DNA from: Prosthecobacter sp.
GTDB lineage: Bacteria; Verrucomicrobiota; Verrucomicrobiia; Verrucomicrobiales; Verrucomicrobiaceae
Assembly: GCF_029946185.1 (NCBI RefSeq)
Contig: NZ_JAQSEA010000052.1
Location: forward strand, 24,038 to 68,417
Reading direction: 5' to 3'
DNA length: 44,380 nt
This document shows positions 33,201-35,796 of this stretch, piece by piece (within the stretch, counting starts at the first letter, position 1; each line of letters starts with the position of its first letter). The notes under the pieces are model-generated. The model was given only the letters and a program-made list of their open reading frames with translations, searched no databases and was not told where the DNA came from. A program made the translations under genes and the position numbers.

Positions 33201-34697
33201 TCACTCTCCCCGCACCAATCGGACAGCCACATGATCGGTGTCCGGCAGGATGCGCTTACGCAATTCAAGGATCACACCAATGGCTTGAAATTCCTCCAGC
33301 ACGCACGCCGCCATCTCGGCCGCGAGGGTTTCGATCAACCGGCGCGGCCGCTCTGCCGCGATCTGCTGCAGCCGGGCCGCGACAGCGGCGTAGTCGATCG
33401 TGGCCGCAATGTCATCGTTCATCGCCTCAAACCGCCTGCGGATGCGCAGGGTCACGTCAGCCTCCAGCACCTGGCTCCCGGCACGTTCCTCTTCAGGCAC
33501 GCCGATGTGGGTGGTCAGGCGCAGTGCCGAGATGCGAATTTCGTCAGGGGGAAGCATGAGGACGGGAGCTTTTAGCCGGAGTTTGGGATCTGACAATGCC
33601 GAAGTCGCAGCAAGCTTTTGCGGCATGGGAACTTCATTCGTCACTCCGCCCAGCAGCCCCCGCCGCACGCATTCGTCCAGCAGGATTCGGGTGGGAATGT
33701 TCAGGTCCATGCGCAGGGCCTCGGCCAGCGGCAGCCATTGAAACTCCTGCGCCTCCTCATTCAGCACCACCTGCGGATCCGCGTCCGCACAGCGCGCGAT
33801 GTAGTTCAGCAGCAGAAAGTGCGCGGAACGCAGGAACTCGGGCGGCTCCACGCAGTCCTGCACCATGACGAATTCGATACCTTGTAAGGTTAGCGCCGTT
33901 TCTTCGATGATCTCGCGAATGAGCGCCGCCTCGCAGTTCTCCCCGCGTTTGATCTTACCGCCGGGGATGCCCCAGCGGTGGCTCCACTTGTGCGTGCGGA
34001 TGAGGAGCATCTCGCCTTTCGCATTCAAAATGAGCGCGCCCACGGTGGACACCGGGTATGCCCCGTCTCCCCCGGTCAGCGGTCCCAGTAAGACGGGCAG
34101 ACGCGAGAGATCCGGCACCAGCATGTCCGGCGCGGCGGTCATGAGCATCTCGGCGCTCTCGTAACCCGTGCAGGTGGCGATGGTCACCACTCCGGCAGCA
34201 TGGCCCGCGTCAATGTCATGCCGCATGTCGCCGATGAAAGCGGTTTCTGCGGCAGCCATGTCCAGCTCCGCCAGCAGCCCATGAATTTCCGTGCGTTTGT
34301 CCACGACCCCGCAGCGCATGATTTCAAATGCATCCCGCACCCCCAGCGCCTCCGCCTGGGCCATCACATGCGGCAGCGGCGCACTGCTCAGCACCACCAG
34401 CCGGCGGCCCGTGGCAGCGGCGAATTGAATCAACTCCCGCGCGTGCGGCAGCAGCGCGATGTCTGCGTGATCATGGGTAAAATGCTCCAGGTAGAGCTCC
34501 TGCAGGCGCTCCACCGGCAGGCCGGGCAACACCTCCGCGAAAAACTCCGTGTACGGCAGGCGAAAGCGCGCCTTAAACTCTTCCCGCGTCATTTCTGCGG
34601 CACCTGCGCTGCGCAGCATGCCATTCACGGCACACAGCACCCCCGGCAGGTCATCTACCAACGTGCCGGACCAGTCGAACAGGAGATTCCGAATCAT
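33201..34697 (-). CDS. HAD phosphatase - NUDIX hydrolase - dihydroneopterin aldolase (FolB) fusion
   Basis: One uninterrupted 498-residue ORF holds three enzymes. Residues 1-205 are a HAD-IA phosphatase: nucleophile D8 in FDWSGTLVDD, S104/S105, K134, and FIGDMRHD with D157 and D161; the usual Asp two residues after the nucleophile is Ser10. Residues 210-350 are a NUDIX domain with a complete box at 247-269 (G..E253..REIIEE). Residues 386-495 are FolB-like: GVPEEER, IDYAAVAARL and LIETLAAEMA with E456, and K481 near the catalytic-lysine position. FolB turns dihydroneopterin into 6-hydroxymethyl-dihydropterin. In E. coli the NUDIX enzyme NudB removes pyrophosphate from dihydroneopterin triphosphate, and a phosphatase then removes the last phosphate. 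I infer one protein for all three steps. The start ATG and stop are clear. Confidence 0.88.
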   Translation of the reverse strand: MIRNLLFDWSGTLVDDLPGVLCAVNGMLRSAGAAEMTREEFKARFRLPYTEFFAEVLPGLPVERLQELYLEHFTHDHADIALLPHARELIQFAAATGRRLVVLSSAPLPHVMAQAEALGVRDAFEIMRCGVVDKRTEIHGLLAELDMAAAETAFIGDMRHDIDAGHAAGVVTIATCTGYESAEMLMTAAPDMLVPDLSRLPVLLGPLTGGDGAYPVSTVGALILNAKGEMLLIRTHKWSHRWGIPGGKIKRGENCEAALIREIIEETALTLQGIEFVMVQDCVEPPEFLRSAHFLLLNYIARCADADPQVVLNEEAQEFQWLPLAEALRMDLNIPTRILLDECVRRGLLGGVTNEVPMPQKLAATSALSDPKLRLKAPVLMLPPDEIRISALRLTTHIGVPEEERAGSQVLEADVTLRIRRRFEAMNDDIAATIDYAAVAARLQQIAAERPRRLIETLAAEMAACVLEEFQAIGVILELRKRILPDTDHVAVRLVRGE

Positions 34698-34801: not shown

Positions 34802-35026
34802 GGGACCATCCTGGTCCCACCACGCTCCGCATTCACCCAGCGCTCTTCCCAAACAGGGACCATCCTGGTCCCTCTCCTTCCAAACGACCCTGCGACTCCC
34901 ACAGGAGTGGAACCATCCTGGTCCCACAACGCTCCGCGTTCACCCATCACTCTTCCCAAACAGGGACCATCCTGGTCCCGCCACGCCCCGCGCCCCCCCC
35001 TTCCCCAAAGGGACCAGGATGGTCCC
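34802..35026. repeat. Array of five 17-bp palindromes upstream of the HAD-NUDIX-FolB gene
   Basis: GGGACCATCCTGGTCCC occurs at 34802-34818, 34856-34872, 34909-34925 (one change, GGAACC) and 34963-34979, and in inverse form at 35010-35026. Spacing is 53-54 bases (last 47). The spacers alternate, giving a higher-order period of 107 bases. Each unit is a 7-bp stem with a 3-base loop. The array occupies most of the 353-base gap between the fusion gene start and the PEP-CTERM gene stop. Rest of the gap: nothing seen. Confidence 0.85.
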
Positions 35027-35050: not shown

Positions 35051-35671
35051 TCACCGCCTCCGCCGCAGCCACCACAGCCCAGCCACTCCCAGCAGCAGCA
35101 GGCTGCCGGGCTCAGGCACCGGCGTGAGTGACGTCACAAAATCGATGCTGTAATTAATCTGATCCCCCCCCTCCTGAATCCAGAAAGTGTAGTTCCCCTC
35201 AGGCAGCGGACCATCAAAACCGGTGCCGCCAAAGAAGGGTCCGTCAATCATCAGCGCCAGCAGGTCGGTGTGGGTATTGCCAAAGCCATCCACCTGATTG
35301 CTAAAAAGATTGTTGCTCAGGTGCAGGGAGGCATCGCCCATGTTGATGCTGCCCCCATCGTCGATGGCCATGAAGGAATTGCTGTTGTTGCCACTGGCGG
35401 AGGAGAAACTCGTCAGATTGATGCCCGTCAGGTAGTAGCCGGCGGCGATGGTAAAATTCCAGACGTCGGCGTCCACCGGCCCCACGCCCCCCACAGCCCC
35501 CATCGTGCCCGAAATCAAATTGCTCCCCAAAGACAAGTCACCGAGCAGCGTCGGCACCCCGCCATCGCCAGACAGGTCGCCATTAGCCGTCTCAACCCAG
35601 GTCAGCGCCTGCGCCGTGCCAAAAGGCAGGGCGAGAGCGGCGCACAAAAGGAGAAGTCGATAAACTGGCAT
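35051..35671 (-). CDS. PEP-CTERM sorting domain protein
   Basis: The start at MPVYRLLLLCAALALPFGTAQA (ATG 35671) gives a signal peptide and 206 residues. It is preferred over the Met at 35728 because a perfect sigma70-type promoter lies between the two. The mature part is rich in Gly, Ser and Asn, with no catalytic signature. The C terminus VPEPGSLLLLGVAGLWWLRR is a PEP-CTERM anchor: PEP motif, hydrophobic helix, Arg cluster. Exosortase would cleave it for surface or exopolysaccharide-linked display. The codon and base composition is ordinary, but the leader is extremely AT-rich. Confidence 0.88.
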   Translation of the reverse strand: MPVYRLLLLCAALALPFGTAQALTWVETANGDLSGDGGVPTLLGDLSLGSNLISGTMGAVGGVGPVDADVWNFTIAAGYYLTGINLTSFSSASGNNSNSFMAIDDGGSINMGDASLHLSNNLFSNQVDGFGNTHTDLLALMIDGPFFGGTGFDGPLPEGNYTFWIQEGGDQINYSIDFVTSLTPVPEPGSLLLLGVAGLWWLRRRR

Positions 35672-35680
35672 GTTATTGTA

Positions 35681-35709
35681 ATTATATTCAATATATATAT
35701 TATTGTCAA
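35681..35709 (-). promoter_or_regulatory. Consensus sigma70 promoter of the PEP-CTERM gene
   Basis: On the minus strand TTGACA (35709-35704) and TATAAT (35686-35681) match the consensus exactly, with a 17-base spacer. Transcription should start only about 2-4 bases before the ATG at 35671, so the mRNA would be leaderless or nearly so. Confidence 0.8.
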
Positions 35710-35796
35710 TAAAGGTAATTGGTTTCACAAACCGAAATGACCGTCCTGCCTTTTTCAGGCTCGCATCTCACCTCCCAGCCCTGCATTTTGCCCCTC

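Follow-up and report, generated by a model that had tools for sequence, protein, structure and literature searches.

A FolB-linked HAD subfamily with a D-W-S-G-T motif, part of a HAD-NUDIX-FolB fusion in Prosthecobacter, as a candidate dihydroneopterin monophosphate phosphatase

Drugs are directed at folate synthesis. To our knowledge, the pyrophosphohydrolase step on dihydroneopterin triphosphate has no assigned enzyme in many bacteria. Excerpts of one account credit the dephosphorylation of dihydroneopterin monophosphate to a non-specific phosphatase, and they also cover two systems that resemble the gene analysed here (PMC1971073). One is the FolK-FolK-FolB protein of Bifidobacterium longum, which likewise places consecutive folate enzymes in one chain; in contrast, the partners of FolB in our case would perform the hydrolytic steps upstream of it, the phosphatase included. 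The other is NudB/FolQ, with which our NUDIX domain shares the NUDIX box and, as for Lactococcus FolQ, a folate-gene neighbourhood. The two remaining parts of the protein can be set beside FolB (PF02152; structures 1nbu and 3o1k) and beside C1-capped HAD enzymes of the phosphoglycolate phosphatase type (2ah5, 3mc1 and 2hsz). Among open-licence PMC papers we recognised none that describes a HAD-FolB or HAD-NUDIX-FolB link.

The window, by which we mean the whole analysed stretch of 44,380 nucleotides, carries the fusion gene at 33201..34697 on the minus strand, encoding 498 amino acids plus a stop; the plus-strand frame over the same positions is not open. The initial annotation had reported a 498-codon frame here and gave no strand, and both this frame and every residue it named (HAD D8, S104, K134 and D157, NUDIX box 247-269, and FolB E456 and K481) were found. 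The frame codes for three complete domains in a single chain, with Pfam matches to HAD_2 (residues 5-174, 68 bits against a cut-off of 23.8), NUDIX (residues 217-335, 70.9 against 21.1) and FolB (residues 387-493, 70.7 against 31.8). An AlphaFold2 model of the protein from a 77-row alignment had a mean pLDDT of 90.3, a pTM of 0.59 and low confidence in the linker at residues 353-379; it was used in place of a single-sequence prediction, for which the mean pLDDT was 35.

Within the genus, FolB lies inside a frame of about 500 residues in 6 of 35 genomes, our own included, and all six of these frames contain HAD, NUDIX and FolB. The six proteins share 88-91% identity with the window protein, and their linker is open throughout and carries an in-frame indel of three codons, so a frame error in one assembly does not explain the fusion. 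The linker itself (residues 351-384, 33546..33647, minus strand; predicted disordered at 353-379) resembles by eye the repeat-bearing spacer found where the genes are separate, in the sister genomes G001 and G023, suggesting that the triple fusion probably arose by read-through of an intergenic spacer. Other members of the genus have either a HAD-NUDIX gene that overlaps or adjoins the FolB gene or a NUDIX-less HAD gene that overlaps it. The triple fusion is thus a recent feature of limited distribution, and it is the HAD-FolB link that is widespread.

The HAD domain occupies residues 1-205 (34083..34697, minus strand) and has a C1-capped, phosphoglycolate-phosphatase-like fold according to Pfam, our HAD profile A1 and structure matches. 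Its motif I reads D8-W9-S10-G11-T12 (34662..34676, minus strand), with Ser where HAD enzymes usually have the second Asp of DxD. This Ser is present in all 119 aligned HAD rows, a set that includes near-duplicates and in which 39 rows were chosen without a motif pattern. D8, T12, K134 and D161 are invariant and S/T104 is kept across the same 119 rows; D157 is found in 118, the remaining row being unreadable; and D16, N25 and H160 are invariant as well. The nucleophile Asp, motif II Ser/Thr, motif III Lys and motif IV Asp pair of a HAD phosphatase are all in place, and the HAD core with its C1 cap is evident from the model and the structure matches; the general acid/base Asp of motif I is not there, Ser taking its position in 119 of 119 rows. 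The initial annotation, correct in the HAD residues it listed, had missed Ser10. Among ten HAD_2 matches in the window's own genome, eight have a readable motif I, namely six DxD, one DAA and the window's DWS, the only one of its kind.

In excerpts of one source, the second motif I Asp is the textbook HAD general acid/base (PMC8069645), and in excerpts of another, changing this residue to Ala in the HAD enzyme Sav2152 raised its phosphatase activity (PMC11084212). Since the Ala change was activating, the DxS motif does not rule out a phosphatase. It does give reason to doubt a routine HAD mechanism, and either the chemistry or the exact substrate of the subfamily may be unusual.

The VIA-align match list, which covers the HAD part alone and not NUDIX or FolB, places this part closest to the phosphoglycolate phosphatase type, with a Z score of 25.7 and an rmsd of 2.0 over 204 residues for 2ah5 and further matches to other phosphoglycolate-phosphatase-like enzymes. 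The nearest named families are likewise phosphoglycolate phosphatases. The likeness to 2ah5, 3mc1 and 2hsz lies in the fold, motifs II-IV and the nucleophile Asp, whereas the window domain differs from them in having DWSGT instead of DxDGT, in its link to FolB, and in scoring under all phosphoglycolate phosphatase cut-offs (54 bits against the 180 bits of the Gph equivalog TIGR01449). Neither the HAD nor the NUDIX domain exceeds any equivalog cut-off.

To follow the HAD domain across relatives, we used two samples. Profile A1, built from 17 rows, matched 34 of 240 phylum-sample genomes with a threshold of E 1e-30, and even the least significant of these 34 matches stood at 1.8e-66, so that by profile score the domain belongs to a sharply bounded subfamily. 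In addition, named bacterial and archaeal genomes were scanned by motif patterns, and the best 80 of at least 527 confirmed HAD relatives were kept; 79 of these 80 titles are Verrucomicrobiota and one is 'uncultured bacterium', a composition from which that of the remaining relatives is not inferable. In 65 of these best 80 named loci the HAD either shares a frame with FolB or immediately adjoins it in the same orientation. Fifteen have both domains in one frame (3 with NUDIX and 12 without), and in 50 a same-strand FolB gene is the direct neighbour (33 of a HAD-NUDIX gene and 17 of a gene for HAD alone). FolB was absent from the fetched flank in 14 of the 80 and lay on the opposite strand in one; of these 15 genomes, 13 have FolB elsewhere and in two none was found.

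Because that scan relied on motif patterns, the phylum sample was added, and it showed HAD linked to FolB in 22 of the 28 genomes examined (25 by fetched DNA and 3 by coordinates) among the 34 that bear the HAD. In the other six of the 28, five f8 genomes and G227, FolB was not within the flank. The remaining 6 of the 34 have HAD frames of 329-415 residues, the size of HAD-FolB fusions. All locus counts are non-independent, as they include many near relatives and some named loci come from the same genomes as phylum-sample ones. FolB itself occurs in 34 of 34 HAD-bearing phylum-sample genomes, which is weak on its own given that 219 of the 240 sampled genomes have FolB. On a quick tree of the 119 HADs, which has long branches and open forks, we counted at least 9 changes between fused and unfused states, at least 11 in NUDIX presence and at least 17 in the kind of linkage, suggesting that the HAD-FolB link has been kept through repeated rearrangement. 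Outside the order, searches with the window's domains matched FolB in 28 of 30 fetched FolB loci, which were the top FolB scores and not a random draw, and matched HAD or NUDIX in none.

Some genomes carry FolB without this HAD. No HAD match at E 1e-20 was found in five FolB-bearing genomes of the genus that are 93-99% complete (G003, G005, G007, G010 and G025), nor in the likewise FolB-bearing G282 of the family and G036, G040, G043, G047 and G049 of the order (f3 genomes), indicating that FolB can work without this HAD there. At three of these loci (L220, L222 and L223, in G003, G007 and G010) FolB follows a gene that by eye resembles a PilT-type ATPase, and no replacement phosphatase adjoining FolB was recognised by eye in these three genomes.

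The NUDIX domain spans residues 213-350 (33648..34061, minus strand), as defined by Pfam, alignments and NudI-type structure matches. Its NUDIX box at residues 247-269 (33891..33959, minus strand) is complete, with G247, E253, R261, E262, E265 and E266 invariant in 62 of 62 rows. The box bears out the NUDIX domain named in the initial annotation, but the domain is not NudB-like by sequence. The NudB model NF006961 gave no match to the domain at E 0.001 in its own genome, and the domain is nearer to NudI both by profile (56.7 bits against 34.0 for NudB) and by fold (TM 0.78-0.85 by target for the NudI-type structure 3oga). Sequence does not assign it: among relatives of solved structure, the best are NudI and MutT proteins that carry no specific name.

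The FolB (dihydroneopterin aldolase) domain forms the C terminus of the fusion (residues 385-498, 33204..33545, minus strand) and was delimited by Pfam, alignment to 1nbu, 100 aligned rows and its fold. Aligning it to 1nbu located E404, Y436, E456 and K481, which we take to be the catalytic-site Glu, Tyr, Glu and Lys of FolB and which are invariant in 100 of 100 rows. Comparison with known FolB structures upheld the FolB-like assignment, with TM values by target length of 0.92-0.93 for 3o1k and 0.87 for 1nbu, the latter at 36% identity. The domain exceeds the NCBIfam folB_dom cut-off (62.8 against 45.05) and, unlike FolB proper, is a C-terminal fusion domain that lies under the NCBIfam folB equivalog cut-off (59.4 against 72.15).

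We then considered the folate pathway around the fusion. Its own genome, which is 95.9% complete, has a single FolB match, the FolB domain of the fusion, and none of the compared genomes of the FolB search has two. NudB did not exceed its family cut-off (NF006961, 103 bits) in any of 27 genomes of the class, all 27 of which have weaker NUDIX matches; the same model was over its cut-off in 1 of 14 controls. Fusion genomes that also carry separate nudB and folB genes, the case named beforehand as damaging to a three-step enzyme, were accordingly not encountered. FolE (PF01227) was found in 0 of the 27 genomes, and FolE2 in all 27 (38 of 44 in the full FolE2 search). The closest solved relatives of the FolE2 of the window's genome are bacterial FolE2 structures, making dihydroneopterin triphosphate the expected starting compound and ruling out that the absence of FolE means none is made. 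FolK is present in 27 of 27. In the Akkermansia-type genomes G162 and G244, FolE2 and FolK are present but FolB and HAD are both missing, a joint absence in line with the HAD-FolB link; these two may use another enzyme to make 6-hydroxymethyl-dihydropterin, or the branch may be broken.

Profile A4, which represents the NUDIX linked to HAD, reached at least 180 bits in 12 of the 27 genomes, always within a HAD-NUDIX frame, and its other matches were below 50 bits. It follows that NUDIX-less HAD-FolB genomes are without a standalone orthologue of this NUDIX, and none was found with A4 in Akkermansia-type HAD-FolB genomes. A different NUDIX gene follows folK in G018, G019 and G033 (L242 3495-4049, L243 3389-3907 and L244 4093-4722), where the HAD gene is NUDIX-less. 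We dropped it as a complement to that HAD: from its motif we take it to be RppH-like, and relatives at 64-70% identity occur elsewhere in the HAD-NUDIX genomes G000, G012 and G016.

Collectively, the domain content and genome context lead us to consider it fairly probable that NUDIX, HAD and FolB would act in turn to carry dihydroneopterin triphosphate to 6-hydroxymethyl-dihydropterin. A FolE2-type GTP cyclohydrolase would supply the triphosphate, which the NUDIX domain would cut to the monophosphate and pyrophosphate. The HAD domain, as a dedicated phosphatase, would take off the remaining phosphate by way of a phospho-Asp8 intermediate, with Ser10, D16, H160 or water standing in for the absent second Asp. 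Dihydroneopterin would then be converted by the FolB domain to 6-hydroxymethyl-dihydropterin and glycolaldehyde, the former being used by FolK. Fusion would provide the three enzymes in equal amounts, and substrate channelling is possible.

Such a three-step folate enzyme had been put forward in the initial annotation, and the context agrees with it, as seen in the HAD-FolB link, the single FolB, the lack of a NudB over cut-off, FolE2 and FolK; the DxS motif, the non-NudB NUDIX, the FolB score below its equivalog cut-off, the HAD-less FolB genomes, the NUDIX-less Akkermansia-type genomes and the 14 of 80 loci with no FolB in the flank count against it. A dedicated phosphatase would be expected to leave just such a footprint, a HAD subfamily that remains tied to FolB while the architecture changes again and again, and the HAD is a strong candidate for the dihydroneopterin monophosphate phosphatase step. 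The broader proposal, which we advance tentatively, is that the D-W-S-G-T subfamily is the dedicated dihydroneopterin monophosphate phosphatase and that in part of the genus it has become fused with a new, non-NudB triphosphate pyrophosphohydrolase and with FolB, covering three consecutive steps.

The main rival to the three-step reading swaps the order of the steps, such that FolB would cleave dihydroneopterin monophosphate to 6-hydroxymethyl-dihydropterin plus glycolaldehyde phosphate, the latter then being dephosphorylated by the HAD. This would account equally well for the HAD-FolB pair and would suit both a FolB domain that scores below its equivalog cut-off and a HAD whose nearest named relatives, the phosphoglycolate phosphatases, act on a substrate akin to glycolaldehyde phosphate. 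However, the FolB domain retains the usual four catalytic residues, and DxS would be just as odd for glycolaldehyde phosphate as for the monophosphate, and we regard the swapped order as unlikely. Nor is FolB of enteric bacteria known to accept phosphorylated neopterin. In favour of the swap, excerpts of one source label an archaeal enzyme 'dihydroneopterin monophosphate aldolase' (PMC5041015).

Two further explanations are less likely than the swapped order, and we hold each to be improbable. The HAD could split a phosphoanhydride, either in the pyrophosphate released by NUDIX or directly in dihydroneopterin tri- or diphosphate. Such leaving groups need less help from a general acid, which fits both the Ser that replaces the second Asp in all 119 rows and the NUDIX-less HAD-FolB pairs, including those of Akkermansia-type genomes, and the structure matches include HAD pyrophosphatases of Bacteroides. 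P-type ATPases have Thr at the second motif I Asp position. Against the phosphoanhydride role, phosphoglycolate-phosphatase-type folds rank higher among the same matches, and wherever NUDIX is present the monophosphate step would lack an enzyme. Alternatively, the HAD and NUDIX could be house-cleaning hydrolases, acting on damaged nucleotides or phosphoglycolate, that share an operon or a polypeptide with FolB and no common pathway. Both belong to large, promiscuous families, neither passes an equivalog cut-off, and in some genomes they lie apart from FolB, but linkage at 65 of the best 80 loci, with repeated fusion and refusion, and the fit of the domains to the missing steps upstream of FolB speak for a shared pathway.

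A phosphatase subfamily so persistently tied to FolB makes the monophosphate step directly testable, in a set of proteins that includes Akkermansia muciniphila. Should DxS prove catalytic, the subfamily would also show that HAD phosphatases lacking the usual general acid occur in nature. Gut Akkermansia strains are predicted folate makers according to excerpts of one study (PMC6593275).

Next to the fusion gene, a gene for a PEP-CTERM protein (Pfam) lies at window positions 35051-35728 on the minus strand. Between the two genes, at 34803-35025, are five copies of the palindrome-like GGGACCAGGATGGTCC, four exact and one with a mismatch, compared with 0.02 expected by chance. Among 265 loci, one further exact copy of these 15 bases was found, on another contig of the same genome (L240).
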